A stretch of DNA of 42,495 bases from a virus: the IMG/VR virus record IMGVR_UViG_3300027759_000159, positions 1 to 42,495 of that record. One strand, written 5' to 3'. The notes beneath the pieces were generated by a model, which worked only from the letters and a program-made list of their open reading frames with translations, was not told the DNA's origin and searched no databases. Below, one piece after another: positions 15,301-42,495 of the stretch. The position numbers and the translations under genes are program-made. Position 1 is the stretch's first letter. Every line of letters starts with the position of its first letter.

Positions 15301-18300
15301 TTTGTGTAACAATTGAATCAACCACCGCTTCAGGGGTAATCAAGGTCAACTGTTGAGCTGTGGGATTTAAACTGATCACACTGCCGGTCATCCATCCTTG
15401 GTTGGCCCAATACAAATATTCCTGGACCATTTGGTTCCAGTCTAGTGTTTTACCGTTCTCTCTGGCATCAAAAACTAGACCTTGACTTTCTAACAAGGCG
15501 CCGTAGCTCAACAAGAAGTCGGCCACAACCGTTTGATTAGTAAACACATATCCATACGGTACCTGCACAATGTTTTGACTGTATGTAGTTGGCACAGTAA
15601 CTCTGGTACCGCCAGCGGTAATAACCCGTGTTGGTCCTCCAGTACGGCTGGCTAATATTTCAAAGTATGGATTGGTTAAACTATATCCAGTAACCGACCA
15701 TCCACCTGCAACAACTTGAACAATAACAGCACTGTATAAAGTTTGACTGAATGGCTGGTTCTTGTATACCAATAAATTGTAACTGTTGTCCGGGATCAGC
15801 AGACTACTGTTTGTGCTGTCAGGACTGGCTGTTTCTGCAATAATTTCAAGGTATTGTTTGTCTGTGAATGTGCCCATTCTGTAGCACAGTCTTACGTCTA
15901 GTAGAGACAAGTCTTCGGTCAGCTTGTTGGTCGAGTTAACTCCCAACTGACGGTTATAGTCAACAATCCAATCAATGTAACTGGCTTTACTAAGGCCATT
16001 ACCGTACACTTGCACACCATTGGCATCTAGTCTATAACGTTGATTATATAAGAATTGTTCAAGGTCTACATCATACTTGTAAAGATCTCTATCAGCAAAT
16101 AAGCTAAAGAACTCAGCTGGGCGTGTGAGTGCCAACAATCTCATAACCGCAAACGGAAATGCCGAACTGGTACGCCAAGTGTATTCGACTGGTCCTTCGT
16201 CGCCGAACACCCAGCTCTTTTGCCATTGGCTTGAATCGTATTGCCCTACTACACTGAAGAACGGGCTTAATAATCGGCCTTCCGTGTCAACAGGTATTAC
16301 TTGACTCAACCCAGGTCTTGCATATTTAGGTAGGTAATACGTACCAGCAGGATCTGCTACTTTTCCAGCGGCTAGATCGTCCCACAACACCAAGTTACCC
16401 GAGGTATAAGGAGCAGGACCATACACTTCAGTCCACCAGGTGGGCTCTTGACTAAACCCTAACATTTCCCACGGTGTAGTCTGAGGAGTTGGCGTGTCGT
16501 AGAAATATTGATAAATGCCGCGCCAAGCGCCAACCGGCAGAGGTGGTTCATTGGAACTGGTTGAGCCGCTGAGTCTATTACCTGCAGCACTGTAATTCCA
16601 TGTAAATTGATTTGAAGAACTATATGTTTGTTCAGAATAAGTCAGTTTATTCCAACCCAACCAACTCAAGAAGCTGGGTGCTAATATTTGATTGATCTCA
16701 GAAAGACTATAACCAGTTGATCTGAACTGTCCGGGTGTAACATCAGTTATGGTCAATGGTATATCTGATTTAATTTTTAAGTTGTTAAAAATTCTAGTTT
16801 CAAATTCCAGCAATAGTTGATCTCTAAAGTCTCCAAAGGCCAATGTAAGGCTTCCGTCGTGTCCTTGGATAACCAGTTGTGGATTATCTACTGTAGAATT
16901 AACATACGTGTAGTCAGGGTAAATTTTGGGCTGGAACGCAGGATACAGTCCTAACTTGGTAGGAGTATTGGGAACAAACGTTCCATAGGTAGTGGCATAT
17001 TCCTGGATGACGATTACATCGCCTACTGCCAGCGGCACAGTTATAGTCAGTGTCGGAGTGTCGGTGCTGACAACGTAGTCATAACCAAATTGTAAAAGGA
17101 CGTCATTGACATAGACCAATACACTTTGATAGTTTGAACTGGTAAAGTTGTAGGTCGTATTGAGATTAAATGTTGGTGTCGAAATTAGTGAATAAGTTGT
17201 TGTGGTTGCGGTATATACTGGATTGGCCGGCAACATATCTGTCCAGTAAAACGGATTTGTTTGTATACGTCCAGCAATTAACTGCGTAACAATGTCTGTC
17301 AGCATTGCTGGAATTGTGTAATTTGTATAATCTGTGGTTACTGCGGCATTCAGCAGTTGTGCTTTATACTGTTCGTATTCTCTACTGCTGTAGGCCAATG
17401 AATCAAAAATATTGTATTGTTTTGATCTCATGAAATAACCAGCCAGGGTCATTGGCGCACTATTTTGTATAATGTTGGTGCCGTAAGGAATAATGTTACC
17501 CAAGTCTCGGGTATTATTATTACCATTGATTGGGCCAACCAAACCTAATAGGTTTTCACAGATTGATTCGTAGTGTGTTCTAGCAGTGCCTACTGTAAAG
17601 TAAGGACTATTAACGTTGAGTGGATTGTTTTCAAGATTAATAGGAACTTGATAAAATGCCACTTTACTGGCCTGGTCACTCAGCACAAGAACTTCAATAA
17701 TGTCACCCGTGGCAAACGCTGTGCCATTGTTGTAGCTGGCATCCGTCCAGGTTATTGTGGTACTGTTAGAGGTGGTTGATACTGAATATTTGTAGGATTC
17801 TTGAAACTCGCTACTCACATATAATTGAATGCCTGGCACAATTGTGTTAGGTAATGCAGCCACATCAAGTTGTAATGGGCGGCCATCATAACTGAATTGG
17901 AATTGCTGTCTTGCCCGGCTTGGAACCGCTGCAGTCTGCCATCCTAGTTCACGGGTGTAGGTAACTCGATCCTGGTACTGTCGAACAAACCCTAAACTGA
18001 CATTTTCAGTATAGCCCACACTATCTACAGTGTAGTTAAAGATGTCAGTGTATAAGTTATTGTCAAATACTATGTCACCAATGTTGGACAAACTTAAATA
18101 TTTAATGGCAAACCCTAACACAGGGTCTTTGCCATTGGTTGATGGAGCATACGAAAATAATTTAGATCCTGTGAAATCACTGCTAGGATATACAACAGGA
18201 TCAGAAAAACTCACACCATTGGAATCATACACATCAAACAATGGGGCTTGATTAGTTGAAGTCTTTTGTTGACTGCGAATCCAGTTAACTCCGTCAAACC

Positions 18301-20746
18301 AAAAACTCAAACCTTGTAGCGTGTTTCCGCTAAGACACACCACACTATTATCAACCACTATGTCACCGTCAACAGCTGGTACTAAATTAATCACTGGTTC
18401 AGACATTAACGGAGGAACAGTGTCAGGTGTGATAAATTCTACCACATATATTGTATCACGCACATCTGGATCAAGGTCGGCGGCAAATATAATACGACTA
18501 CCGTTTATTAAGTCATAGCCGTCGATTCCGTAACCAGTGCTTCCGTTGACTGTGCTAAATGCATCGGTATTTGAAAAATCAATAATGTCTACAGGCTGTT
18601 TGCCTTTGGTACCAAAATCAAATAACCGAGTTCCACCTCGAAATTCCAATATAGGACGACGGGCTCGTAGCGCATTGTCTATAATCAATACACTGTTGTT
18701 GTAGGCAGCTGTTTGTTCAATTACGCTAATATGGAACCAGCGGTTACTTCGTGTCCATGGATTTGAATCCGGACTTGATCGATTTATGGTCAAATAATCT
18801 GGCAGTGCAGGTTGATTTAAACTGGCATCGTAGTTGCCAAAATCATAAAGAGTGCTGTCGTACGGCACCGAACTGCTTTGTGTATAGGTTTCGGGTGTTA
18901 CAAATTCTGTAACTGGCAACAACTGTATGGCTGTGCCGACACCTTCAATATAATAACTATTTCCTTGATACGTGGCCGGTACAACTGATCCAATGAACTG
19001 AACTTTAAGACCATTGGTAAACACCACACCATTGGGACTAGTATAATTTTTCTTACCAAGTATATCTGCAATGTCTAGAGAGGCAGAGGCACTTTGGTTG
19101 ATGATATTTATTTCACCAAAGATACCAGGATCGATACCATCCTGATAATATAATCTATTTCTTGTTGCTGCCAACAGCGGAATTTGTTGGAAGGCTCCAG
19201 TATTATCTTTATACCAGCTGGTGTTGGAATATACTGTGCCAAATTGTATGCTAAATTTATACAAATCTGGTATGTCGTATACGCTGGTCAACCGCATATA
19301 CTGACCACCGCCTTCGGCGGTTATGTATTGTATTTGCCAAACACTACGTTGAATTGCTACGTCTGTAATTGGTGTAGTTTGATCAAACTCTAAGCTGTCA
19401 AAAGAACCCGGGCCAGCCAATACAGGATCTTCGGGCGGTGCTGTTCTAACCAACGGATCAAACTGTGACTTGATCAACCAGCCACCTGTATCAGGATCAG
19501 GATCAGGTTCTGTGAATACTATAGTTCGACCGTTTAAATTTGTAATGCCGTCAATGCCGTCAGGGTAGTTAGATAAAAACTGATCAACAAACACATTGTT
19601 GAGCTGGTCAAATTGCAAATTGGTTATGAGACCCACTTGCCCGTTGTTGGTATCAATATAAGGAAGGTCATAATAAAAATCTTGGGCATCACTTAGTGGA
19701 ACCGCAAAAGTTACCGTGCCGAGATCAATGCCGTTATTGGTTACGCCATTGACTGGGCCAAGTCTACTACTAATGTTGGGTGTGCTGGGTATGCGACCAT
19801 TTACTCCAGGGTCAGTTTGAATCCAGAAATCAGGGCCAGTACCAGGTATGGCATCCACAATTGTAAACACGCCTTGCATGTTCATCTGTGTAGAATTGTT
19901 GTAGTATAGCGTATTAGGTGCATTCTGCGGCACCGTAAAAGTTATTGTTCCAGTGGCAGCACCGTTGTTGGTTACACCTTCGGTGAACAAGTTGTTAATG
20001 CCCAGCGTCTGTTGTGTCTTGATAAAAAATGGCAATGCTGGAGTAGATACCAGTGTAAATGTGTAGGTGTTGCCACGGGTCAAAGTCAACGTAGGATTGT
20101 TTTCGTAATCAATTACCCAAGCACTGGTGCCTTGATTTGAAACACGAAAATTAACACTGCTGGCATCATTTTGAGCTACCTGGAATGTGTAACTGCCGCC
20201 ACGAACCAATGTCAACGTAGGATTTTCACCAGATACACCTGTGAATGTATAAGCACCATCGGCTCTAGTGACTACAAAATTGTCAGTGGTGGGCACAGCT
20301 CCTGTAAACACATCAACTGCATTTGGTCCGCCAGGTAACCAATAGTATTGTGCATAGTTTACATACTTGTCAAAATCTACAAAAGGATCCCAGGCATAAT
20401 ATTCGCTGGTATACAGTTGGTCAGCATTCTGAGTAACAGCTCCTTGCAGATTTAAAGCATCAGTTATGCCAGGATATGTTATAGCATCAACAACCTTATT
20501 ACTATCAGACGGATCAATTTGAACTACACCAGGCTCAAGTTGATAGTTGGTTCTAGTTGCCGTGGGTTCAGCAACATAATAGTCGCCTGGAATAACTCCG
20601 GGACCAACACGGCGGCCAACAAATCCTTGTATTTTTTTAAGCTGGGGTTCCTGGATCAATTGATCCAGGGTAGCAGCTAAAACTTGTCTGTTGGTAGAGG
20701 TCTGAAAGATCTCTGGTAAGAAATCTACTGATCTGGTGCGAGCCAT
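6311..20746 (-). CDS. Giant multidomain virion structural protein, 4811 aa
   Basis: One uninterrupted frame of 14.4 kb begins at an ATG overlapping the gp6 stop (TAATG). The N-terminus (MARTRSVDFLPEIFQT, then YAWDPFVDFDKYVNYAQYYW) is the conserved opening of large baseplate-associated proteins in aquatic T4-like phages. Regions read by eye: two cupredoxin-like repeats (about 165-370); a long aromatic body (about 370-1900) with LLALTRPAEFFSLFADRDLY; seven FG-GAP-like blades (about 2320-3020); four Y-x2-G-(D/E/Q)-x-V-x-Y modules near 1920, 3725, 4205 and 4595; and many V-x-V-(Y/F)-V-N ... DY strand repeats, dense in the last 600 residues. It sits where T4 has gp7, gp8 and gp10 after gp6, and may replace some of them, but I see no sequence match to those. 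Probable roles are wedge periphery and host contact. Confidence 0.85.
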   Translation of the reverse strand: MARTRSVDFLPEIFQTSTNRQVLAATLDQLIQEPQLKKIQGFVGRRVGPGVIPGDYYVAEPTATRTNYQLEPGVVQIDPSDSNKVVDAITYPGITDALNLQGAVTQNADQLYTSEYYAWDPFVDFDKYVNYAQYYWLPGGPNAVDVFTGAVPTTDNFVVTRADGAYTFTGVSGENPTLTLVRGGSYTFQVAQNDASSVNFRVSNQGTSAWVIDYENNPTLTLTRGNTYTFTLVSTPALPFFIKTQQTLGINNLFTEGVTNNGAATGTITFTVPQNAPNTLYYNNSTQMNMQGVFTIVDAIPGTGPDFWIQTDPGVNGRIPSTPNISSRLGPVNGVTNNGIDLGTVTFAVPLSDAQDFYYDLPYIDTNNGQVGLITNLQFDQLNNVFVDQFLSNYPDGIDGITNLNGRTIVFTEPDPDPDTGGWLIKSQFDPLVRTAPPEDPVLAGPGSFDSLEFDQTTPITDVAIQRSVWQIQYITAEGGGQYMRLTSVYDIPDLYKFSIQFGTVYSNTSWYKDNTGAFQQIPLLAATRNRLYYQDGIDPGIFGEINIINQSASASLDIADILGKKNYTSPNGVVFTNGLKVQFIGSVVPATYQGNSYYIEGVGTAIQLLPVTEFVTPETYTQSSSVPYDSTLYDFGNYDASLNQPALPDYLTINRSSPDSNPWTRSNRWFHISVIEQTAAYNNSVLIIDNALRARRPILEFRGGTRLFDFGTKGKQPVDIIDFSNTDAFSTVNGSTGYGIDGYDLINGSRIIFAADLDPDVRDTIYVVEFITPDTVPPLMSEPVINLVPAVDGDIVVDNSVVCLSGNTLQGLSFWFDGVNWIRSQQKTSTNQAPLFDVYDSNGVSFSDPVVYPSSDFTGSKLFSYAPSTNGKDPVLGFAIKYLSLSNIGDIVFDNNLYTDIFNYTVDSVGYTENVSLGFVRQYQDRVTYTRELGWQTAAVPSRARQQFQFSYDGRPLQLDVAALPNTIVPGIQLYVSSEFQESYKYSVSTTSNSTTITWTDASYNNGTAFATGDIIEVLVLSDQASKVAFYQVPINLENNPLNVNSPYFTVGTARTHYESICENLLGLVGPINGNNNTRDLGNIIPYGTNIIQNSAPMTLAGYFMRSKQYNIFDSLAYSSREYEQYKAQLLNAAVTTDYTNYTIPAMLTDIVTQLIAGRIQTNPFYWTDMLPANPVYTATTTTYSLISTPTFNLNTTYNFTSSNYQSVLVYVNDVLLQFGYDYVVSTDTPTLTITVPLAVGDVIVIQEYATTYGTFVPNTPTKLGLYPAFQPKIYPDYTYVNSTVDNPQLVIQGHDGSLTLAFGDFRDQLLLEFETRIFNNLKIKSDIPLTITDVTPGQFRSTGYSLSEINQILAPSFLSWLGWNKLTYSEQTYSSSNQFTWNYSAAGNRLSGSTSSNEPPLPVGAWRGIYQYFYDTPTPQTTPWEMLGFSQEPTWWTEVYGPAPYTSGNLVLWDDLAAGKVADPAGTYYLPKYARPGLSQVIPVDTEGRLLSPFFSVVGQYDSSQWQKSWVFGDEGPVEYTWRTSSAFPFAVMRLLALTRPAEFFSLFADRDLYKYDVDLEQFLYNQRYRLDANGVQVYGNGLSKASYIDWIVDYNRQLGVNSTNKLTEDLSLLDVRLCYRMGTFTDKQYLEIIAETASPDSTNSSLLIPDNSYNLLVYKNQPFSQTLYSAVIVQVVAGGWSVTGYSLTNPYFEILASRTGGPTRVITAGGTRVTVPTTYSQNIVQVPYGYVFTNQTVVADFLLSYGALLESQGLVFDARENGKTLDWNQMVQEYLYWANQGWMTGSVISLNPTAQQLTLITPEAVVDSIVTQTPENLILDQNRTTIPTAQLVIDRYENTFRVNSLNEQTISYIALRQTSYESLVILDNVSVFGDLLYDPATGARQSRVTVIATVAAEWNGQLDAQGFINNNTQTVKEWQPLQKYTKGEIVIYKNNYWQALDIVQPSTQWNQSLWSQSNYTKIQGGLLQNIPLLANQLANSYDVNQSNLQLEQDLFAFGLIGFRPRQYMVDLNLTDISQVNLYQQLIKDKGTLNSVRLLTNTNLNKETAQYQVYENWGIQRGIYGANANRQFIEMRLNEALLTANPAMIQIVAPQESSVADQTILYEDLWRESYNVTSPDIFPTAFMPVADSALPSAGYVNLNDVDITVFDLDGQLGLADGVLNTIGIGTTVWAAKSNAYDWNVYRCTEVPGYISSATPNLNGTTIITFTQPPGLAVGDIVIIRFLDTTVDGVYRVLARPGLTSIAIALTITNTVTGSGLGFSLQTMRVGQASDVLNLPYTDALVPGARVWVDDNGAGRWEVLEKTDPFIDAGAVTPTLPVANSGYGSSVAQGYQNIIAMIGAPTGGDDATGAIYTYVKDDNNNYSENSILLLNAADTLGFGNAIQIGYQNWAIAGASASKSNQGYAVAIYRPTGSTAFEERQLLTSPDGDFSNAEFGYSVAISQDEQWMYVSAPGQNKVYPYGRVTIPGQSAQFITPGVYQVYNIGGIIEFDNELQLAVVLNNNLLTIGTDYSVAGTVINLAGIPPPDEKLIVTRKVQQDFVGDGIETVFDLGPYLYTADNIESFIVYVNEVIQVPDVDYTFTASGDYPITFTAAPGLNNAITVITGTYWQPMAAIEGPAASRFGSSIHTTTDGRQIIIGASDDESDPGVNSGSVYVFDRSVIRYIISDTTQLSYTLPGGYQDPVAVILNNVYLTNTAQYIDGQFTVVGGDVLLNVTLNVGDILQIESNIFTQVQKIVPDAPYDESAFGSAVDVCPNNCSIYTGAPVDGTVTVGAGSVQRNVNQARVYGTITSINANPSLTAGDTIRINNTPVAVPAGPNNTAAGLAQAIVAAEIPNVIASVADGLLTISIVNVAAADAYNRLTVWPGTSGTAFDDLGFDTYAYTQTITSPNPSAGANFGAALNIDTTASTLVVGAPRGNLYEAVIFDNGTTYFDDRSTTFFNAVLESGVVYTFDYLPSATDTVTNPGKFVFGQQIYDNLTDPLDQWGAAVNYTTGKLLVGSPTGADNYGRVGQLVNPDRLPAWKILHSQQPVVDVALLNSVYMYNKLQSQETYFFDFIDPLQGKILGAARQNIDFIGQVNPAQYNTGSINNIGNFWGSERVGTIWWDTTNARFIDPNQDDIVYASRRWGQLFPSSTVDIYQWVASSTPPATYTGEGTPLNTTSYSVRAHLTATGTFETVYYFWVSGITTIAVNEGKTLSTTGIARYIEEPRSSGIPYIAALDASTVAIYNGSQYLSASDTILHVDFSQELSDANIHTEFQLIADGDPTSFLADNLYQKLQDSFCGYNQNGAQVPDPFLSPPEQYGVAFSPRQSLFVDRLMALENYLTRTNEILKYLPIVEQRRFILLNSSEPIPAAGSEQYNKLLDNIEQLSYQNFYQVPLGYKYLILSDSTYNGAWTIYEVVLESNASAAPRVPQLVRIQNFNTKNYWNHIDWYKLGYNSSTTPVAQVPNYSSLVTLDVAVGASVKVTANAQNKWEIYIKTTVGWERVGLQDGTIAFDNTLWDYAAGRFGFDAEVYDAQYYDQEPVIETRKIIQAINDELFIDDLAIFKNQLLILMFKFILTEEQAPDWLMKTSLVNIRHDIRALLPFPTYRRDNQDFVSDYLQEVKPYHVQVKQFNLVYNGQDDYPGFATDFDNPSYYDTTLEIPQYVSPILLPYTKSTATGTGQASDIADTPADAEIWATTPWQEWFNNYLLSLISISVTATGSGYAAEPTVVVGTEWTANTAYTVGQQVFYGSNLYSVTVAGTSADVPPDFVTGSQLVGTARLTYVGTPATAVAVINSSLQVIAVNVVNEGSGYSTNPVITFVSDSGTGAQARANMGNPLVREFNMTIKYDRYEYLSTITDWNYLIANYPADTQVRFADTVWQAIDTVINTPIVLDSTGTAGAYTLTVLSTTGLTTGMIVTGLGIPADTTVTQINDVDNTVTISRAVLQSITLEPVNFYNPFIIEEWSRVPASILSGINRTQGFYLPTVNQPGRSLPLLIDGLNYPGVQVYALDFSYNTGYDVGNYDINPFDNISISPEGFPTYDPALLDANYSSSYLDPFLGFRPTDINVDGGGYIDVFSSYAPEELVPGSEFDTLDFRVYTAPGFDNTGLGHGFPAVSQRYVYDSANPVLSFAGLLEYPFTVVVFNATLGLAIQPVNFDWANYEVTLGLTETDGDIIVLYVTGVGGGNQLYLNTYNQAVLDEVTVPFATPSTYNIATTYTWGDVVSYNGEFYQSTIDLNIGNPPVNLVGWTLISGGAVVYEILIFNGETQLIDGTDYTVASSGGSTTVTFDTTYDNTARINLAVLGYAVDGITHSWSLPLAQSVVFTGATTIELVNSMQGTNAVNIIVSINGNRLNPYQGSEYLGDGVTDVYQLPNSYGYNPALVSDNDVFVFVDNVKLIQDIDYVVDAYDGISDYRTITFTTAPVIGSKILLSVATDCGYRVYNNSLTFLPGTIPVVGDSIDIITWNDTAEQGLLTEVFIGPGSINNNTFDLGREIVNPERLLVSLNGYWLFNGIDYVLNGTSITISGQTIVSTDVLAATLFTNRVVPNPTAFRIFQDMRQVQATYRITPGTTTTLVQPVEILDDIIYVEDATVLGDPNLATSYNNNISYVVGDVVMYGNGFYQAIAPTVGNLPTDTDYWEVTDGAANIWGILTIDGERIMYRHRDTVANTVSGLLRGTAGTAITTHTAGTAVYNMGRENLMPLTCQNYIVSNITNPLESGVNLGDGTTVEFTADIDISQEPSATRDESVEVYIGGTRIPDTDYTITADNPVTVEFNTAPPTGYEVAILVKRAHTWYNLATPDLPLNETDTICARFLQGR

Positions 20747-34156: not shown

Positions 34157-35173
34157 ATGACAAATCTATTTAAAAAAGTAGCTGTATGCACGGACATTCA
34201 TTTTGGACTCAAATCAAACAGCCTGGTTCACAACCAGGACTGCTCTGATTTCATTGATTGGTTTATTGCAACTGCCAAAGAGAACGGTTGTGAAACTGGT
34301 ATGTTTTTGGGTGATTGGAGCCATCAACGTGCCGCAATCAACATGCAGACTTTGCAATACAGCCTGCGTAGTTTAGAAAAACTGTCCAAAGCATTTGATC
34401 GTTTTTATTTTATCCCAGGCAACCACGATTTGTATTATCGTGACAAACGAGACATCTATTCAACAGAATGGGCCCGACACATTCCTAATATTCAAATTGT
34501 CAATGACTTTTTCAAAGACGGCGATGTAATTATTGCGCCATGGCTAGTAGGTGATGATCATAAGAAGTTGTCCAAGATGAGTGCCCGATACATGTTTGGC
34601 CATTTTGAATTGCCACATTTTAAAATGAATGCCATGGTGGAAATGCCAGATCATGGTGAAATCCGAGTAGAAAACTTTAGTGGCATCGAAAGCGTGTACA
34701 GTGGGCATTTTCATTTACGTCAGCACAAGAAGAATATCAACTATATCGGCAACTGCTTTCCACACAATTTTGCCGATGCTGGTGATGACCAACGCGGTAT
34801 GATGATCAAACAGTGGGGTGAGGCAGATCAATACTTTGCATGGCCTGGGCAACCGTTGTATCGTGTTATGAAGTTGAGCGAAGCCATTGATAATGGTAAA
34901 AATATACTTAAACCCAACATGCATGTGCGTGTAGAGTTGGACATTGACATTAGCTATGAAGAAGCAAACTTTATCAAAGATACTTTTGTCAAGGAACATA
35001 ATTTGAGAGAGATGGCCTTGATTCCTAGCAAGCGCACCGACATTGATATTGATCTAGCCCCAGGCGAGTTAAAGTTTGAAAGTGTAGACCAAATTGTCAC
35101 TGATCAACTTACCAATATTGAAAGTGAGTTTTACGATCCTAAGTTATTGTTGAAAATATACCAGGACTTATAA
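34157..35173 (+). CDS. gp47: Recombination endonuclease subunit gp47 (Mre11/SbcD-like), 338 aa
   Basis: gp47 is the nuclease half of the gp46-gp47 complex that resects DNA ends for recombination-dependent replication and helps degrade host DNA. The metallophosphoesterase motifs are all visible: D13-x-H15 (VCTDIHFG), G52-D53 with H56 (LGDWSHQR), G88-N-H-D91 (IPGNHDLYYR), the H149 region (FGHFELPHF) and G183-H-F-H186 (YSGHFHLRQH). Length matches T4 gp47 (339 aa). It has its own promoter and lies upstream of gp46, but separated from it by one inserted gene. Confidence 0.93.
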   Translation: MTNLFKKVAVCTDIHFGLKSNSLVHNQDCSDFIDWFIATAKENGCETGMFLGDWSHQRAAINMQTLQYSLRSLEKLSKAFDRFYFIPGNHDLYYRDKRDIYSTEWARHIPNIQIVNDFFKDGDVIIAPWLVGDDHKKLSKMSARYMFGHFELPHFKMNAMVEMPDHGEIRVENFSGIESVYSGHFHLRQHKKNINYIGNCFPHNFADAGDDQRGMMIKQWGEADQYFAWPGQPLYRVMKLSEAIDNGKNILKPNMHVRVELDIDISYEEANFIKDTFVKEHNLREMALIPSKRTDIDIDLAPGELKFESVDQIVTDQLTNIESEFYDPKLLLKIYQDL

Positions 35174-35174
35174 T

Positions 35175-35900
35175 ATGTTATGTAACCGAAATGACAATCT
35201 CGAATCAAGAAATTTTGTTGACAACGTAAATTTCTCAGCAGCCGATCCGTGCATCTGGGTTGTTTATCCGGGCGGAGCATCAGGCGACTTGCTGATATCT
35301 ATCATTGACAAACATTATCTACGCACCGGCTGTGAATATTACGGAATTGATGATTCTGGAAGAGTAAAATTGTATACCACTGATTACGAAACAATCGATA
35401 ACAATCATCAGATCACTGGCCAAACTCTATTTAATGATCAATGGTTCTTTGACTTGGCCGAGAAATTGGGCGAAAGAAATTTAAACTATTCATTACTTGA
35501 TCAGGTAATCTTCGGGTGTCATTTATATCCACCGTCTTATATAAACAATATTCTTAAAACTTTTCCTCAGTCAAAGATTATCAACATCTACCCAAAAGAT
35601 AAAAAAGGGTTAAATTTGATAAAAATTCTAGGCTCATATAAAAATAAAAATCTTCTCGATTTGTCAGTATTAAATGAGTCGGACGATTATCAACCTAACC
35701 TAGTTGAACACGAGAGGGTATTAAACGTTCCGTTTGGCTCACTGTTCAATGACATTTTGTATCACAAGCAGTATAATATGATATTAAACTTTTTGGAACT
35801 TCCAGGGCAGTTAATTTCTTTTGATTATATTAAATTTTATCTATCAAAACAACATCCAGAAATAAAAAACTTATTAACGGAATATAGCGAATCACTGTGA
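35175..35900 (+). CDS. P-loop/sulfotransferase-like protein inserted between gp47 and gp46, 241 aa
   Basis: The ATG lies one base after the gp47 stop, and the gene ends in a GTGA overlap with gp46, so it is embedded in the operon. After a hydrophobic strand comes WVVYPGGASGDLLISIIDKH, which has the P-x-x-(S/G)-G-x-x-x-L-x-x-x-I layout of the 5'-phosphosulfate loop of sulfotransferases and related P-loop proteins. A second strand (QVIFGCHLYPPSYINNI, KIINIYPKD) would be the matching half of the fold. No other motif is decisive. The gene is visibly richer in A/T (many AAA, AAT, TTA codons) than gp47 and gp46, suggesting later acquisition. A role in sulfation of a host or phage glycan is speculative. 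Confidence 0.6.
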   Translation: MLCNRNDNLESRNFVDNVNFSAADPCIWVVYPGGASGDLLISIIDKHYLRTGCEYYGIDDSGRVKLYTTDYETIDNNHQITGQTLFNDQWFFDLAEKLGERNLNYSLLDQVIFGCHLYPPSYINNILKTFPQSKIINIYPKDKKGLNLIKILGSYKNKNLLDLSVLNESDDYQPNLVEHERVLNVPFGSLFNDILYHKQYNMILNFLELPGQLISFDYIKFYLSKQHPEIKNLLTEYSESL

Positions 35901-37660
35901 TACATATAAAAAATTTAACTGTTAAAAACTTCATGAGTGTAGGTAATGCTACACAAGCCATTGATTTTGATCGCAAGGATCTAACACTGGTATTGGGCGA
36001 GAACTTGGATCTAGGTGGTGACGGCAGTCGCAACGGCACAGGCAAGACCACAATCATCAATGCTTTGAGTTATGCTCTGTATGGTACAGCACTCAGTAAT
36101 ATTCGCAAGGACAATTTAGTAAACAAGACCAATGGCAAGAATATGTTGGTCAGTCTTGATTTTGGTGTCAGCGGTAAAAATTATCGCATTGAGCGTGGTC
36201 GCAAGCCAAATGTTTTACGTTTCTATGTCAACAATGAAGAACAGGCCATCACAGACAACGCTCAAGGTGATTCAAGAGAAACGCAAGACAACATAGAACA
36301 ATTGCTAGGACTTAGCCATGATATGTTTCGACATATCCTGGCCTTAAACACCTACACAGAACCATTCTTGAGTTTGAAGGCCAACGAACAGCGCACAATT
36401 ATTGAACAGTTGTTGGGCATTACACAGCTAAGTGAACGTGCTGACCGCATCAAAGAACTCAACAAACAAACCAAGGATGCTATTCAGCAAGAAGAATTTC
36501 GCATTCGTGCTGAACAAGAAGCAAATAAACGTATTGAAGAACAAATAGAAAGTCTACGACGTAGACAAACATTATGGACAACTAAACATGGCGAAGATAT
36601 CTCGGAACTTGAGAAAGCCCTCAAGGCGTTACAGAATATTCAGATCGAAGTGGAGATCCAAGCGCATAAAGATCACAAAGAATGGGATCAACGGCGTAAG
36701 GATATCAACGAATTATCAACACAAATCAGTCGTGTCAAGATGGACATCGGTAGGGAAGAAAAGCTGGCAGCCAAATTATCAAAAGAAATTGAGACGCTCG
36801 AGAATCATGAGTGTCATACGTGTGGGCAGGCCTTCCACGACACTAAGCACCAACAAGTTTTGGCGGGCAAACAGGCGGATTTGGCAACGGCTCGACAAAG
36901 CGGCACAGAATTTAGCACCCTGTTATCAGAGCTGGAGATTGCCCACACCGCCTTGGGCCCGCTAGGCAAACCACCCACGATGTTCTATGACAAAGAGTCT
37001 GATGCCATCCAACATCAGGCCACGGTGGCAAACTTGGAACAACAGATTGCCGCAAAGGCTGTTGAAACAGATCCGTATGCAGAACAAATTGAAGAAATGC
37101 AACAGCAGGCATTGAAAGAAATCACATATGATACACTTAACGAATTTACTCGCTTGCAAGAACATCAAGACTTCTTGCTCAAATTGCTTACCAGCAAAGA
37201 TTCGTTTATCCGTAAGAAAATTATTGAACAGAATCTCAGCTACCTAAATGCTAGACTCACACACTACTTGGATCGTGTGGGATTGCCACACACAGTTGTA
37301 TTCCAAAATGACTTGACTGTCAGTATTGAGGAACTGGGTCGTGAGTTAGACTTTGACAACTTGAGTCGAGGTGAACGCAATCGATTGATATTAAGTATGA
37401 GCTGGGCGTTTCGTGATGTTTTTGAAAGCCTATATCAACCTATCAATCTGTTATTCATTGATGAAATGATCGACAACGGTCTGGACACCGCAGGTGTTGA
37501 GAATGCCCTGGCCTTGCTGAAACAAATGAGTCGTGAGCGCCACAAGAGTATCTGGTTAGTGAGTCACAGAGATGAGTTGGCTGGTCGAGTTGAAAACATT
37601 CTCAAGGTTGTTAAGGAAGGTGGCTTTACTAGTTACAATACTGATGTAGAGGTCACATGA
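35897..37660 (+). CDS. gp46: Recombination endonuclease subunit gp46 (Rad50/SbcC-like), 587 aa
   Basis: The GTG start overlaps the previous stop (GTGA). gp46 is the ATPase partner of gp47. Walker A is the extended T4-type loop GENLDLGGDGSRNGTGKTT (residues 34-52). Two long charged coiled-coil arms (about 170-300 and 315-450) flank the zinc-hook HECHTCGQAF near residue 305, whose CxxC dimerises Rad50-type arms. The ABC signature is LSRGERNRLILSMSWAFRD (near 487), Walker B INLLFIDEMIDNGLD (near 516), and the H-loop WLVSHRDEL (near 555). Length is close to T4 gp46 (560 aa). No disruption seen. Confidence 0.95.
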   Translation: MIHIKNLTVKNFMSVGNATQAIDFDRKDLTLVLGENLDLGGDGSRNGTGKTTIINALSYALYGTALSNIRKDNLVNKTNGKNMLVSLDFGVSGKNYRIERGRKPNVLRFYVNNEEQAITDNAQGDSRETQDNIEQLLGLSHDMFRHILALNTYTEPFLSLKANEQRTIIEQLLGITQLSERADRIKELNKQTKDAIQQEEFRIRAEQEANKRIEEQIESLRRRQTLWTTKHGEDISELEKALKALQNIQIEVEIQAHKDHKEWDQRRKDINELSTQISRVKMDIGREEKLAAKLSKEIETLENHECHTCGQAFHDTKHQQVLAGKQADLATARQSGTEFSTLLSELEIAHTALGPLGKPPTMFYDKESDAIQHQATVANLEQQIAAKAVETDPYAEQIEEMQQQALKEITYDTLNEFTRLQEHQDFLLKLLTSKDSFIRKKIIEQNLSYLNARLTHYLDRVGLPHTVVFQNDLTVSIEELGRELDFDNLSRGERNRLILSMSWAFRDVFESLYQPINLLFIDEMIDNGLDTAGVENALALLKQMSRERHKSIWLVSHRDELAGRVENILKVVKEGGFTSYNTDVEVT

Positions 37661-38262
37661 AGATAGCCATTACAGGAACAACAAGTGGTGTTGGTAAAGA
37701 ACTTAGTGATCAATTAAGTAAAGATCACAACATTATAGCTATTACTCGCGATGATTTAGAATTAAGTGCTCTTAACGCAGTAAACAATTACAGCATGTCT
37801 ACAGTAGACATGTTGATTAACTGTGCCGGCACAGACCAAGGTGGCAAAATTGAATTTGCCAAGCAAGATTCAGCTAGCATCATAAACACATTAACAACTA
37901 ATTTGTTAGCACCAATTTTATTATCGCATAAGGCTTTGGAATTAAATTCTGCTTGTAAAATAGTAAACATTACCAGTACCAATAACAAACAGTATTGGCC
38001 AAACAATTTAGCCTATAGCCTGTCAAAAAAAGCCCTGAGTGAGTTTGGACGAATGTTACAGGTAGATCATCCTAGTGTAAAGTATTTAGAAATACAACTA
38101 GGACTTACTAAAACAAATTTTAATCAGAATAGATATGTTGGTCACGAGAATAGATTTGACGATGTATATCGTAATGCCCATTTAACTCCCAAGGACGTGG
38201 TCAAAAGAATCTTGTCTGTGTTGTTTGATAATACTGTAAAATTTATTGAGATCTCACCATGA
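37657..38262 (+). CDS. Short-chain dehydrogenase/reductase, 201 aa
   Basis: Overlaps the gp46 stop by ATGA. The Rossmann N-terminus has T6-G-T-T-S-G11-V-G13, the SDR dinucleotide loop TGxxxGxG; NCAG at 55-58 is the NNAG-type strand; the active site is S107 (VNITSTNN), Y120 and K124 (AYSLSKKAL), with the usual 13-residue Ser-Tyr spacing. At 201 aa it is shorter than a classical SDR (about 250), missing part of the C-terminal substrate lobe, so its substrate cannot be guessed. It is AT-rich and directly coupled to a radical SAM gene, as in an auxiliary metabolic cassette, for example nucleotide-sugar or small-molecule modification. Confidence 0.85.
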   Translation: MKIAITGTTSGVGKELSDQLSKDHNIIAITRDDLELSALNAVNNYSMSTVDMLINCAGTDQGGKIEFAKQDSASIINTLTTNLLAPILLSHKALELNSACKIVNITSTNNKQYWPNNLAYSLSKKALSEFGRMLQVDHPSVKYLEIQLGLTKTNFNQNRYVGHENRFDDVYRNAHLTPKDVVKRILSVLFDNTVKFIEISP

Positions 38263-39356
38263 CCCATCAATGGCAATTATATCACTGGCATTTTGAAGTT
38301 AGTGGCAAATGCACACTAAAATGCCCTAGATGTCCAAGGAACGACACTGCACCAGTGCCCTGGTTAAACAAAGAACTAGATTTAGATTTTTTTAAAAAAA
38401 CTTTACCTCCTGAGTTATTAAAAACTCAGGTCAAAAGAATAACCATGTGTGGTGATATCGGTGACCCAATCTATGCTAGTGAATATCTCGAAATTGTAAA
38501 ATATATTAAATTGCACAATCCTAAAATTCATGTATACACTATCACAAACGGTAGTTATCGTAAGCCAGAATGGTGGAAAGAGTTTGCCAAAATCAGTAAT
38601 GAATACGATACCATAAACTTCAGCGTTGATGGGTATGACAATGCCAGCAATAATTTATATCGAGTCGGCAGTGACTGGGACTCTATCATAACCGGCATGA
38701 AAATTATGTGTGGCGAAAGTCCTGCGTTTGTTTATTGGGCAACAATTGTTTTTGCATTTAATCAAGATTATCTGGATCAAATTGAACAACAAGCCCGTGA
38801 TCTCGGGTGCGACGGATTACAATTAACTTACAGCACAAAATTTGGTAGCAAGTATGGTGAAGCATATGGTGGCACCAAAGACCCAATGGAACCACGCCCA
38901 GAATTTATTAGTTCATCTCACAGATACGAAAGACATTTCCGTAACATAAGTGGCCGCAAGCAACTTAATACCGAATATCTATTACATAATCAACAACAAT
39001 TTGAACAGATTAAACAAAAACATAACACTGTTATTACACCTATGTGTAGTATTGGTAATCGTGGATTATATGTTAGTGCAGACGGTGTATTACACCCATG
39101 TAGTTGGGTTAGCTTTCCTTATGTGTCTATGAGCACCAATCGTAAAACTATATATTTTAAGGATAGTTTTCATCAGGTCTATAGAGAACAATTAAATTTA
39201 AAAACACAATCATTGACAGACATATTGAAAAACCCAATCTGGAACAAGCTATTCGACACATTTGATGATCCAAAAAAAGCCTGGGTAGAGTGCGAGCAAA
39301 AATGCAATTGTAATCTAGTAGATAACGAATATGCTGTTGGATGGCTTACAAATTAA
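38259..39356 (+). CDS. Radical SAM protein with Cys-rich C-terminus, 365 aa
   Basis: The start overlaps the SDR stop (ATGA). C18-x3-C22-x2-C25 (SGKCTLKCPRCPRND) is the 4Fe-4S cluster motif of radical SAM enzymes, which cleave S-adenosylmethionine to a 5'-deoxyadenosyl radical. ITMCGDIGDPIYASEYLEIV supplies the GGE-like SAM-binding strand, and INFSVDGYDNASNNLYR a later barrel strand. The C-terminal third has further cysteines (MCSIGNRG, LHPCSWVSFP, VECEQKCNCN), resembling a SPASM or twitch auxiliary-cluster domain. Such enzymes often modify peptides or sugars. The target is unknown; the pair with the SDR suggests a two-step modification. Confidence 0.88.
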   Translation: MTHQWQLYHWHFEVSGKCTLKCPRCPRNDTAPVPWLNKELDLDFFKKTLPPELLKTQVKRITMCGDIGDPIYASEYLEIVKYIKLHNPKIHVYTITNGSYRKPEWWKEFAKISNEYDTINFSVDGYDNASNNLYRVGSDWDSIITGMKIMCGESPAFVYWATIVFAFNQDYLDQIEQQARDLGCDGLQLTYSTKFGSKYGEAYGGTKDPMEPRPEFISSSHRYERHFRNISGRKQLNTEYLLHNQQQFEQIKQKHNTVITPMCSIGNRGLYVSADGVLHPCSWVSFPYVSMSTNRKTIYFKDSFHQVYREQLNLKTQSLTDILKNPIWNKLFDTFDDPKKAWVECEQKCNCNLVDNEYAVGWLTN

Positions 39357-39390: not shown

Positions 39391-39819
39391 ATGGTATGGC
39401 TGTACGAAAACACTCAAATTCAAGAACTACCCGAAGACTGTGTTGGTTTTGTCTATTTGATTACAAATAACTTAACCGGCAGAAAATATATTGGAAAAAA
39501 ATTAGCAAAATTTAGTAAAACAACATATAGAGTAGTAAAATTAAAGAACGGCAACAAAAAGCGTAAGAAAATCAAGAGTAAAATAGATTCAGACTGGCAG
39601 CTATACTATGGAAGTAACGATCAACTTAATAAAGACATTGCAGAGCTAGGCTCCAACAACTTCACAAGAGAAATATTATTTTATTGTAAATCAAAAGCAA
39701 CTTGCAGTTATATAGAAGCTAGAGAACAATTCAATCATAAAGTATTAGAATCAGACGACTGGTATAACGGACAGATTAGTGTTCGTGTGCATGGCAGTCA
39801 CATAAAAAACAAAATTTAA
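39391..39819 (+). CDS. GIY-YIG nuclease-like protein, 142 aa
   Basis: The N-terminal strands G19-F-V-Y22-L-I-T-N and K32-Y-I-G35-K-K are the GIY and YIG signature. The Lys-rich loop KNGNKKRKKIKSK follows, then DWQLYYGSNDQLNKDIAELG and NFTREILFYCKSKATCSYIE with AREQF, the helix bearing the candidate catalytic Glu, and DDWYNGQI. T4 relatives (Seg proteins and other GIY-YIG proteins) are freestanding homing endonucleases, and close counterparts are common in T4-like phages. Start is the ATG at 39391, 34 bases after the radical SAM stop. An unusual structured non-coding region follows it directly. Confidence 0.8.
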   Translation: MVWLYENTQIQELPEDCVGFVYLITNNLTGRKYIGKKLAKFSKTTYRVVKLKNGNKKRKKIKSKIDSDWQLYYGSNDQLNKDIAELGSNNFTREILFYCKSKATCSYIEAREQFNHKVLESDDWYNGQISVRVHGSHIKNKI

Positions 39820-40119
39820 AAATTAGATAGGCAGCTTTACTGACTCTGTGGTAGGTGTTATGGCCTACCCCCATCGAGGAACGGTGCAATACCCGGTCTA
39901 GAACTTTGGGCGTCAAAGGCAATTGCTAACTTAAGGCAACAAATGGTTTGGGCTCCGTTGAAAAAGATACGACCCATGCTCGTAGGACTTGGATTTATTA
40001 TCGGGTTACTAGGGTTCCGTTGATATGTGAAGCTAGAGTAAGGGGTACCGGTCAACCGCCTCTGCGTAGAAATACAATCTCTTTATAATAAATGGCAGCT
40101 ACACTCAGATAATGTAGAA

Positions 40120-40153
40120 GGTCAGTTCACCGTGCATACGGTGAATTGTGACC
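40120..40153 (+). other. Perfect hairpin with coaxial outer stem
   Basis: A seven-base-pair stem TCACCGT/ACGGTGA with a GCAT tetraloop (40127-40144) is nested in GGTCA/TGACC (40120-40124 and 40149-40153) with small internal loops. No U-tract follows, so it does not look like a simple terminator. Confidence 0.65.
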
Positions 40154-40186
40154 GCGTAATCTAGATAATGCTAAAGAAAAGCAAAT

Positions 40187-40221
40187 AAAAAAAATTATGT
40201 CTGAGCTCAAGCGAAAGACAT
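40187..40221 (-). terminator. Intrinsic terminator for the leftward auxiliary operon
   Basis: Read leftward, the stem ATGTCT...AGACAT (40197-40202 with 40216-40221) is followed by AA and eight U residues (40187-40194), about 30 bases after the stop of the 111-aa gene. A second stem, GATTAGC/GCTAATC (40223-40239), lies just before it and may reinforce the stop. Confidence 0.6.
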
Positions 40222-40251
40222 AGATTAGCGTAGCTAATCGTTTAATGCCAC

Positions 40252-40587
40252 TCAGAACTTATCGGGCCAGTCCCTAAAAAGTGCGTGTTGGATATCTCCT
40301 GCAACAAACTGATTAAATGATTTATGTTTAACTTCGAGCTCGCCTTCTAAAGGTGCTACTCTCTTAAAGGCTTCATCCATCTGTGCCATATTTTTAAACT
40401 CCATCAAAATCATAAATTCCGGCATGTCGGCAATGCTGCGGAATCCCATTTTACATCTAGTGATTCTATAGCTCTCCATTTTGCCTTCGCTGATCAAATG
40501 ATCAAAGAAACTTTTCATTCCATTGACCCAATCAAGGTCTGAGATGTCACCTTCTTTGTTTGCCCAAATTGTATATAAGTCTGCCAT
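40252..40587 (-). CDS. DUF6614-like small protein, 111 aa
   Basis: The sequence opens LYTIWANKEGDISDLDWVNG, continues MKSFFDHLISEGKMESYRIT and RCKMGFRSIADMPEFMILME, and ends LFRDWPDKF. It matches my memory of the DUF6614 family (a one-domain, ferredoxin-like, antibiotic-monooxygenase-shaped fold in many Proteobacteria), including the helix plus R-x-K-x-G-F/L strand and the final LYRDFPD-type ending. No catalytic residues are known for that family. It starts four bases after the stop of the GNAT-like gene and is the last gene of the operon before a terminator. The family assignment is from recall. Confidence 0.7.
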   Translation of the reverse strand: MADLYTIWANKEGDISDLDWVNGMKSFFDHLISEGKMESYRITRCKMGFRSIADMPEFMILMEFKNMAQMDEAFKRVAPLEGELEVKHKSFNQFVAGDIQHALFRDWPDKF

Positions 40588-40591
40588 ATTT

Positions 40592-41035
40592 TTACTCCAT
40601 AGGTCCTAGTATTTCAAATCCATCCATATCGGATTTGTATAAGTGCGCTTGCTCAAGGTACAAGTATTGAAATCCTCGTTCCTTGTAGATAGCACACTCT
40701 GCTTTCATTGTTTCGATGCCTAACCGCATCCGGGGTCGATGATACGTCCACGCAAACTGATCGCACAAGGCATTGTGCTGATCAAACTTGCGAATCAAAC
40801 TGAATGCTACCAATCGTTCTTGATCGTAGTAACCAATGATCTCAGCCATTGGATCCATGTAACGGCTGTGAAACATGGGCATTACACTAGCAAAGTGCTT
40901 GTAGATGCAATAGGTTCTATATATATCATCTAACCGGGCCAGCATGTCAGGTTCGCGACTGGTAATATACTTCCATGAGACTGTGGGTGTATAGTTGGTT
41001 TTTGTCAGGTCGATCCGCGCAAATTGATAAGTCAT
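40592..41035 (-). CDS. GNAT-like acyltransferase-type protein, 147 aa
   Basis: Overlaps the amidinotransferase stop by ATGA. The order of strands and helices fits an N-acyltransferase (GNAT) fold: AEIIGYYDQERLVAFSLIRK is the strand pair before the acetyl-CoA site, DQFAWTYHRPRMRLGIETMK an altered acetyl-CoA loop (R-x-R-L-G-I instead of Q-x-x-G-x-G/A) followed by its helix, and GFQYLYLEQAHLYKSDMDGF the last strand with YLE-x-A. The loop is divergent, so cofactor binding is uncertain. A role in processing the amidinotransferase product is only a guess from context. Confidence 0.65.
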   Translation of the reverse strand: MTYQFARIDLTKTNYTPTVSWKYITSREPDMLARLDDIYRTYCIYKHFASVMPMFHSRYMDPMAEIIGYYDQERLVAFSLIRKFDQHNALCDQFAWTYHRPRMRLGIETMKAECAIYKERGFQYLYLEQAHLYKSDMDGFEILGPME

Positions 41036-42168
41036 AACTTCTCCGGGAAGTAATCTTGCATGACGCCTTCTCTATGTAAATCACTAGTTACGCAATGTAT
41101 ACCACCGTCCCAAAAATATCTATGTCTAAACGGCACAACATGCGGAGTGATTCCATAACGGTTTAATGCATCAAATACTTGTTTATTATAGTTGAATACT
41201 ATGACATTTTTTGGATCAACTATCAGCATGTTTACATCAAATACTGTTTCTTCTACATAACCAGTCCAGTGGCCTAACCAATTTTCCACAAGATCAACTA
41301 CCGCTTGATCTTGTTCAAATCCGGGTATCCACCATTTGCCACGATTTTTTTCTTTGAGCTCTAAAAATGGCTTTACTTTAGACCAACCCTGATTGGGAAG
41401 ATAAACAACTTCCCAATCAGGAAATGTATCGGCATAGGTTGGTATATCTCTTAGACTTACAATTAATCCAGGACACACAGGGCAATAGGTTCCGTCGCTG
41501 TGACCGCCGGTATCGATAATATGATTTCTAGTATTTGGAAATTCTTGATGGACAAATCGTTTATAATCAGTTGTGTCTTGATTGTAGACTTCTGTTCCAA
41601 AAAACAAATCTTTGCCAATGCGTGATATTTGTGCTCCATTGATCAACGCCGAGTGATATTGGTGTGATTTAATTGTATTTCCTTGTTTGCGTATGCAATC
41701 AAAAATATGATCGTATGTGGAATAAAATTTTTGATATGCTTCAAATTGATGAAGAGTATTGCATTCTTGTTGTATCCAATTTGGCAACGATAAAAACTCT
41801 TCAATCGAACTGCATTCAGGCCACGACGAGTCTTTGACATTCTCGTATGATTTTTTAAAATCAAAACTGTAATTCTCGTAAAATTTGTCACCGACCATTG
41901 CAGTGAAATCCCGTGGGCACATTGGTGGCGGCATAAACTTGTTATTGATAAACGTTGTATCTGCTAAATTAGGACGCAAAACTTCAACACCAAACTCTTG
42001 TAATTTTTTTATGATGCTTTGATAGTCTTCTTCAGTTTCGATTGCAATACGTTCAAACAACGAGCGAACATGTGGCACTGTAATCCACGAATAAAACTCA
42101 GGTGGATAACTGCGTCCTACTACACACACCTTTAATGGATCCCAATGTTGATAAACAGAATATGTCAT
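41032..42168 (-). CDS. Amidinotransferase (glycine amidinotransferase family), 378 aa
   Basis: This family moves an amidino group from arginine to an amine acceptor through a covalent Cys intermediate. Recognisable blocks: WDPLKVCVVGRSYPPEFY at the N-terminus, MPPPMCPRDFTAMVGDKFYE (the P-R-D block), IIDTGGHSDGTYCPVCPGLI (catalytic His region), FDVNMLIVDPKNVIVFNYNK, and near the C-terminus RYFWDGGIHCVTSDLHREG, where C359 fits the nucleophile of human AGAT (GGFHCWTCDVRRRG). Length fits the family (360-420 aa). The acceptor cannot be told from sequence; relatives make guanidinoacetate or act in toxin pathways. It is coupled by ATGA to genes on both sides and is likely an auxiliary metabolic gene. 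Confidence 0.88.
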   Translation of the reverse strand: MTYSVYQHWDPLKVCVVGRSYPPEFYSWITVPHVRSLFERIAIETEEDYQSIIKKLQEFGVEVLRPNLADTTFINNKFMPPPMCPRDFTAMVGDKFYENYSFDFKKSYENVKDSSWPECSSIEEFLSLPNWIQQECNTLHQFEAYQKFYSTYDHIFDCIRKQGNTIKSHQYHSALINGAQISRIGKDLFFGTEVYNQDTTDYKRFVHQEFPNTRNHIIDTGGHSDGTYCPVCPGLIVSLRDIPTYADTFPDWEVVYLPNQGWSKVKPFLELKEKNRGKWWIPGFEQDQAVVDLVENWLGHWTGYVEETVFDVNMLIVDPKNVIVFNYNKQVFDALNRYGITPHVVPFRHRYFWDGGIHCVTSDLHREGVMQDYFPEKL

Positions 42169-42495
42169 AGTCTTGGATCCTGACGATGTTTGAACAGGGG
42201 CGTTAGATACTCTTCGGGCCAGGTGTTGTAAAAACCCTTCCGGCCAACCAGTTGTGCTTTTTCATTCAAGTCTGTGAGACTTTGAATCAGGGCCAAAGCA
42301 TAGGTTCCGTTGTTCATAACCACTCCGTTGACTATTTCTGCCGCATCAGGATGATCTTCCAGGGCCAATAAATTGTTTGGCACTAAAAATTCTCGATTAC
42401 AAACATCAACAGCATGGCTTAATTCATCATGTGGTATATCCTTAGGATCGTAGGCAAAAATAATCACACTCTTGCCCGCCAATCCTCGGCGACTG
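42165..42495 (-). CDS. Unknown protein, N-terminus outside the window
   Basis: The frame is open to the window edge (the first codons read S-R-R-G-L-A-G-K-S), so its true start lies beyond 42495; a TTG at 42482 is unlikely to be the start. Visible C-terminal 110 residues: VIIFAYDPKDIPHDELSHAV, then VCNREFLVPNNLLALEDHPD, VVMNNGTYALALIQSL and GFYNTWPEEYLTPLFKHRQD. It looks like a small alpha/beta protein of unknown function. The stop overlaps the amidinotransferase ATG (ATGA), placing it first of the visible genes in that operon. Confidence 0.65.
   Translation of the reverse strand, partial: SRRGLAGKSVIIFAYDPKDIPHDELSHAVDVCNREFLVPNNLLALEDHPDAAEIVNGVVMNNGTYALALIQSLTDLNEKAQLVGRKGFYNTWPEEYLTPLFKHRQDPRL

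Follow-up and report, generated by a model that had tools for sequence, protein, structure and literature searches.

The 42,495-nucleotide stretch of viral DNA analyzed here in full (the window; positions 1 to 42,495 of IMG/VR record IMGVR_UViG_3300027759_000159) carries a gene for a short-chain dehydrogenase/reductase (SDR) followed directly by one for a radical S-adenosylmethionine (SAM) enzyme, hereafter rSAM, the two overlapping each other and the SDR gene overlapping a gp46-like recombination gene upstream (Table 1). A sequence-only reading of the window had described two open reading frames (ORFs) tied together by an ATGA overlap, with a second such overlap tying them to gp46, and had suggested a two-step modification by the pair; both frames are indeed open, and both overlaps are present in the sequence. 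The pair is inseparable across the viral relatives examined and in most of the bacterial relatives found, and we are confident that SDR and rSAM act in one pathway; their chemistry and substrate we infer from family features, fold comparisons, and gene content.

TABLE 1 Features of the SDR-rSAM locus and of the genes around it (window coordinates)
Feature	Position	Strand	Basis
SDR gene, 201 amino acids, ATG start	37657..38262	+	ORF call, Pfam, alignment, structure model
rSAM gene, predicted Twitch-type C-terminal domain, 365 amino acids, ATG start	38259..39356	+	
ATGA overlap, gp46 stop with SDR start	37657..37660	+	Read from sequence
ATGA overlap, SDR stop with rSAM start; boundary kept in relatives	38259..38262	+	
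gp46/SbcC-like gene, upstream of the pair (context only)	35897..37660	+	PHROG 77, E 1.1e-102
gp47/SbcD-like gene (context)	34157..35173	+	PHROG 100
241-amino-acid ORF separating gp47 from gp46, in a variable slot (context)	35175..35900	+	No Pfam or PHROG match
SegE-type GIY-YIG endonuclease gene (GIY), usual downstream neighbor	39391..39819	+	PF19835, 113.1 bits

The SDR scores 70 bits against PF00106 (cut-off, 26.6) and has the TGxxxGxG motif and catalytic Ser-Tyr-Lys of classical SDRs, but it falls short of their length of about 250 residues and of their full set of strands and helices. Across 31 aligned relatives, T6, G7, G11, S107, Y120, and K124 are invariant and G13 and N82 nearly so, which leaves the Ser-Tyr-Lys site as intact as it had been described from sequence and gives a catalytic set of Asn82-Ser107-Tyr120-Lys124 in a minimal Rossmann form. 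The structure model (predicted local distance difference test score [pLDDT], 95.4) is a compact Rossmann fold in which the region from the second strand to the strand at 52-55 is shortened; a sister class of these SDRs is about 170 amino acids long. Each of the 59 distinct phage SDR sequences keeps YxxxK, and these include two additional copies that do not adjoin this rSAM. The protein is thus short, not broken, and the truncation beyond function considered in the sequence-only reading is not seen. The ratio of nonsynonymous to synonymous substitution rates (dN/dS) is 0.08 to 0.16 in five of five comparisons, indicating purifying selection. A basic residue just past the second SDR strand favors NADP(H), and R31, in that position, is invariant. 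The best structure matches are a serine dehydrogenase with NADP+ (3asv), a sulfoacetaldehyde reductase, and a 4-hydroxyisoleucine dehydrogenase, and two of the top five are NADP bound or NADP dependent by title; the protein is probably a small NADP(H)-type reductase. YdfG-type serine/3-hydroxy-acid dehydrogenases (3asv, 3rku) are closest in both fold and sequence profile, but the window SDR is about 21% identical to them, is some 45 residues shorter, and reaches 35.4 bits against the YdfG model PRK10538 (cut-off, 411). Searching 50,697 phage records with the SDR returned no match.

The rSAM falls within the radical SAM superfamily, with a PF04055 score of 39.8 bits (cut-off, 29.5) and an invariant C18-X3-C22-X2-C25 motif. 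Toward its C terminus it carries C263-X12-G276-X4-C281 and C345-X3-C349, and none of these four cysteines varies among 13 aligned proteins from phages and bacteria. In the available text of PMC6231123, the SPASM motif is given as CX9-15GX4C-gap-CX2CX5CX3C-gap-C and the Twitch domain of BtrN as four cysteines on one cluster. We rejected full SPASM membership, with its seven-cysteine motif and two auxiliary clusters, because only C263, C281, C345, and C349 are invariant and PF13186 scores 20.7 bits, just below its cut-off of 21.5. The extra C-terminal cysteines noticed earlier are therefore there, and the label "SPASM-like" given to them should read Twitch-like: judged by its sequence, the rSAM is of the BtrN-like Twitch type (half-SPASM), with four cysteines for one predicted auxiliary cluster. 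The structure model (pLDDT, 90.9) comprises a radical SAM core and a Twitch domain, and its fold matches are SuiB (Z, 18.6), BlsE (18.1), SkfB (17.7), anSME (17.1), and DesII (17.0), followed by a viperin-like enzyme (16.1) and BtrN (14.8). In three of five comparisons dN/dS is 0.040, 0.042, and 0.046, the other two being saturated at synonymous sites; both genes of the pair are under purifying selection, and gp46 and gp47 have values of 0.02 to 0.04 where measurable.

Several named families were tried for the rSAM and rejected: viperin (TIGR04278, 13.3 bits against a cut-off of 450; NF038283 unlisted up to an E value of 0.1), PqqE (TIGR02109 unlisted up to the same value), and the tungsten-cofactor oxidoreductase maturases that are its best NCBIfam match (TIGR04317, 47.3 bits against 380). 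Nor does it carry in cis the recognition element (RRE) of sactisynthase/SuiB-type maturases of ribosomally synthesized and posttranslationally modified peptides (RiPPs), a domain described in the part of PMC6231123 at hand; its first cluster cysteine is residue 18.

The viral loci are not independent, many being near-identical, and we counted distinct proteins where possible. Homologue searches gave 47 viral loci with the rSAM as query and 21 with the SDR, and a profile of 29 rSAMs confirmed at least 590 viral stretches among at least 599 pattern matches, of which the best 80 were retained. Among 97 rSAM ORFs scoring at least 200 bits, 94 have an SDR directly upstream on the same strand; of the three exceptions, L037 meets a contig end, L044 reflects a start call, and L046 has a broken frame. 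Of 62 distinct viral rSAMs, 61 lie within 20 bases of their SDR, the genes overlapping, and the sole exception, L044, fits too once the homologous start at 10001 is used in place of an erroneous start call. The outer boundaries of the pair provide a built-in control: that between gp46 and SDR is broken in 8 of 56 cases, with gp46 missing in 3 more loci, and that between rSAM and GIY in 11 of 43, with GIY missing in 16 more. Genes have inserted at both flanks of the pair but never between its members. On these counts at the inner and outer junctions, we rejected a chance neighborhood.

In quick trees, in which the bacterial branches are long, the phage rSAMs group together and split deeply into two branches, which match the two SDR size classes; SDRs of about 200 amino acids mostly overlap the rSAM gene by 4 bases, and those of about 170 mostly by 10. 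Locus L038 has a short-class SDR beside a long-branch rSAM, and its SDR was therefore exchanged. Two further loci, L004 and L031, are mosaic: one member of the pair has diverged far more than its neighbors. The SDR slot accepts new partners but not a vacancy.

The partnership extends to bacteria. A scan of one-per-species genomes with a DNA pattern for CxLxCPRCPR matched at least 119 stretches, four of which encode true relatives (324 to 362 bits to the rSAM profile), all in records titled Oligoflexia or Bdellovibrionales. In a survey of the Bdellovibrio-type phylum, 7 of 368 genomes had an rSAM match at E ≤ 1e-60, in eight loci, and an SDR adjoins the rSAM in six of these. The SDR precedes the rSAM in L219 and L220, follows it in L222, L231, and L232, and is convergent with it in L221; that the partnership was kept while order and orientation changed is evidence for a shared function that does not depend on the phage operon as its source. 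The rSAM profile at the same threshold gave 0 of 398 in the phylum of L107 and 0 of 377 in that of L141, searches that lacked a positive control and show nothing. A genome-contig scan with the rSAM alignment matched the pattern in 80 stretches, none of them a relative, and the rSAMs of L056 and L126 had only remote matches in phages and plasmids. At one Bdellovibrio-type locus (L235, 1899-17000), many radical SAM ORFs occur together with two glycosyltransferase-2 ORFs, and a second SDR (PF13561, 27.3 bits) adjoins a different radical SAM ORF; some ORF labels at the loci were assigned by eye where no Pfam match is given.

The sequence-only reading had described the pair as fused to the recombination operon. 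Coupling holds at this locus, but a general tie does not: L039, L044, and L056 carry the pair without gp46 in the approximately 9 kb viewed upstream. We therefore rejected the pair as part of the recombination system, and, given these loci and the bacterial ones, its tie to recombination looks incidental.

The overlap in 61 of 62 viral rSAMs, the reshuffled bacterial partnership, and an SDR exchange without loss of the pair together lead us to a single pathway. The two-step joint action proposed from the window alone is thus strongly supported, the two genes being together in every resolvable viral relative examined and recurring reshuffled in bacteria; the neighborhood survey suggested at that stage found them co-occurring elsewhere in viruses and bacteria alike, and the lack of co-occurrence that it might have turned up did not arise. 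A partnership of this kind is known from the apramycin pathway, in which the radical SAM dehydratase AprD4 and the NADPH reductase AprD3 are dedicated two-step partners (PMC5461906, in the text available). The likeness is one of working and not of homology, and we claim no family membership; unlike AprD4/AprD3, the pair here consists of overlapping phage and Bdellovibrio-type genes with a minimal SDR. BtrN, the Twitch radical SAM dehydrogenase of the butirosin pathway, shares with the rSAM a core and a four-cysteine Twitch domain (aligned over 239 residues), but identity is 13%, and the rSAM has a longer C-terminal part and a fixed SDR partner. BlsE, from the blasticidin S pathway, is among the closest whole-length folds (273 residues, 15% identity); we know of no partner SDR for it. 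The epimerase HygY is a further conceivable analogue.

Our leading reading, which we advance tentatively, is that the pair forms a two-step tailoring module acting on a sugar, nucleotide-sugar, or similar polyol. The 5′-deoxyadenosyl radical of the Twitch rSAM would take a hydrogen from a hydroxyl-bearing carbon, and the second (Twitch) Fe-S cluster may accept an electron, or water may be lost, to give a ketone or a dehydrated keto product. The NADP(H)-type SDR would then reduce the ketone, leaving a deoxygenated or epimerized center, and the modified sugar-type product would end on a glycan of the virion or the infected cell. A more elaborate version, which we regard as doubtful, is an undescribed tailoring system, obligately coupled, in which a pared-down SDR docked on the Twitch rSAM would take the reactive ketone directly, making a new deoxy or epimerized sugar or nucleotide for infection.

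Gene content in eight records, the window included, bears on the substrate. PF01370 sugar-nucleotide epimerases are present in seven of the eight (all seven larger ones, not the window) and DegT aminotransferases in five; record G371 has an rSAM relative (99 bits) whose ORF overlaps two that match PF01370, with a DegT fragment after them, and the L235 cluster containing the bacterial pair has Pfam-confirmed glycosyltransferase-2 ORFs. The sequence-only reading had left the substrate as a small molecule, sugar, or peptide; sugar gains indirect support from this gene content, and peptide gained none, with no room for an in-cis RRE and no conserved precursor ORF adjacent to the pair. Several observations weigh against the sugar module. 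The PF00483 sugar nucleotidyltransferase occurs in none of the eight records and PF00535 in four, one of them below cut-off; apart from the SDR, no gene is constant beside the rSAM in the clustered loci; and the structural matches of the rSAM mix peptide, nucleoside, and sugar enzymes and so do not decide its substrate. Sugar enzymes are common in large phages, and their presence in these records is therefore weak evidence. Among the bacterial loci, two of eight (L223 and L233) have no SDR beside the rSAM, and their rSAMs carry a different cluster motif; the Tyr of YxxxK is missing in four of seven bacterial SDRs, which may not be reductases.

The alternatives that survive best concern other substrates. 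Like viperin and BlsE, the rSAM could have a nucleotide or nucleoside as its substrate, with the SDR finishing a product that modifies DNA or RNA or disarms a host defense nucleotide, an unlikely case. In its favor, the PDB entries best matched in sequence by the rSAM profile are viperin-like enzymes (E value, 6.9e-6), which also head the Foldseek list, the nucleoside-antibiotic enzyme BlsE is third in that list and also ranks high in the second comparison (Z scores above), and the pair lies within a DNA-recombination operon. Yet the viperin match spans the radical SAM core only (55-171 of 366), the TIGR04278 score is far below its cut-off, and the link to gp46 is not kept everywhere. We consider it likewise unlikely, and slightly more so, that the target of the rSAM is a ribosomal peptide, or a protein of the host or virion, on which the SDR completes the modified residue. 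SuiB, SkfB, and anSME are among the nearest folds, and at two bacterial loci, L222 and L232, an ORF of 79 to 94 amino acids overlaps the beginning of the rSAM gene; those ORFs, however, have no counterpart in phages, only 17 residues precede the first cluster cysteine of the rSAM, leaving no N-terminal RRE, and 642 small ORFs (15 to 70 amino acids, within approximately 3 kb of the pair) held no precursor candidate in the operon. The small-ORF families that recur in most loci trace a conserved RNA.

Acyl or lipid chemistry, with the SDR as a small ketoacyl-type reductase working with acyl-AMP ligases and the rSAM acting on the same chain, seems improbable: short AMP-binding (ligase-like) ORFs lie near the pair in L027, L056, and record G370 (L257), and the PHROG match of the SDR is named FabG-like, but such ligases are found in a minority of loci and the nearest SDR structures act on small hydroxy acids or aldehydes. 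There is little to recommend the idea that SDR and rSAM are mere neighbors, separate accessory enzymes in one operon slot; both genes are accessory, and their slot receives many unrelated insertions, but these insertions flank the pair without ever splitting it, and the partnership recurs in bacteria under other gene orders. Least probable by far is a helper in pyrroloquinoline quinone (PQQ) or methanol metabolism, as radical SAM genes of Lake Baikal methylotroph phages are read in the available text of PMC7678222, which reports radical SAM proteins together with a methionine adenosyltransferase and an S-adenosylhomocysteine enzyme in a T4-like phage population: record G374, which is not equated with the phage of that paper, has an AdoHcyase beside the pair (L039) and MetK elsewhere, but the window rSAM lacks a TIGR02109 match up to an E value of 0.1, the bacterial relative L126 scores 26.7 bits against that model's cut-off of 381.35, and MetK is present in only one of the eight records.

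Both enzyme families and an analogous partnership are known; as far as our searches show, this branch with its fixed partner is undescribed. The only rSAM matches in the 50,697 phage records (four records, E ≤ 1e-5) are in Campylobacter phages F379/CP220 and Pelagibacter phage Mosig, whose radical SAM proteins are 25 to 28% identical to it, several of them in tandem, with no SDR annotated alongside; the F379 cluster includes amidinotransferase and sugar-transfer genes, and that of Mosig aminotransferase and carbamoyltransferase genes. A viral structure library yielded remote matches only, the best at 23% identity. We found no account of a phage SDR/rSAM pair in the literature searched, including the available text of PMC12619734, PMC9723584, PMC7029224, PMC7678222, and PMC9301287, in line with the earlier remark that no such phage pathway was known to the sequence-only reader.

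As for the surroundings of the pair, the window gp46 is nearest to that of Pseudomonas phage PA5oct and its kin (53%), followed by Sinorhizobium phage Phosso and Agrobacterium phage Atu_ph07. In the stretches inspected, gp46 has similar surroundings in all three, being preceded in Atu_ph07 by a late sigma factor and a gp47-type endonuclease, and no SDR or radical SAM annotation occurs downstream of it. Given this kinship to PA5oct-type jumbo phages and a relative in a 349,369-base record, we take the window to be a fragment of a jumbo-phage genome. Near the end of that record (G369, 334601-349369; L253 1952-10720), periplasmic binding proteins and a porin-like ORF were recognized by eye; they are either genes of host type that the phage carries or a sign of a chimeric contig end. 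The interval from gp47 to gp46 (window 34157-37660) is a variable-gene spot with differing ORFs in different relatives. At L019 11100-13207, L026 7514-9405, and comparable positions, another radical SAM ORF (PF04055, 62.7 bits) that weakly matches a B12-binding domain (PF02310, 19.1 bits) inserts beside the pair, with either of two types of small protein ahead of it; the cluster of this ORF covers 24 of the clustered loci. Elsewhere in the window, a very large ORF (4,811 amino acids, 6311-20746, minus strand) adjoins apparent tail and baseplate genes, and a 378-amino-acid ORF (41032-42168, minus strand) has weak arginine-deiminase-type matches (16.5 bits, under cut-off) and is possibly amidinotransferase-like, a function also annotated in the radical SAM cluster of F379. 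A block of DUF6614, p40592, and p42165 ORFs (40252-42482, minus strand) is conserved in 17 to 21 loci; in L069, p42165 and p40592 are placed in the gp47-gp46 interval, and the block thus moves within the same region.

After the GIY gene comes a conserved noncoding stretch of about 400 bases (window 39819-40225). Its identity between phages reaches 87% where the nearby rSAMs share only about 58%. An alignment of 40 sequences has 79 predicted pairs, 30 of them with compensatory changes, and the core motif is present in 111 viral stretches. It matched no Rfam family and is neither a tRNA nor a transfer-messenger RNA, making it a candidate new family of structured RNA.

The SDR-rSAM pair is carried by hundreds of uncultured phage contigs and by a few Bdellovibrio-type bacteria. 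Papers on environmental phages have repeatedly reported radical SAM genes to which no role is assigned (PMC7029224 and PMC9301287, in the parts available). This family is unusually tractable: the partner is fixed, the genes overlap, the catalytic residues are defined, the SDRs come in two sizes, L038 offers a natural swap, and there are bacterial homologues. Expression of the two genes could identify a substrate for a phage pair of this kind for the first time and would show whether these phages make a new glycan, nucleotide, or protein modification.

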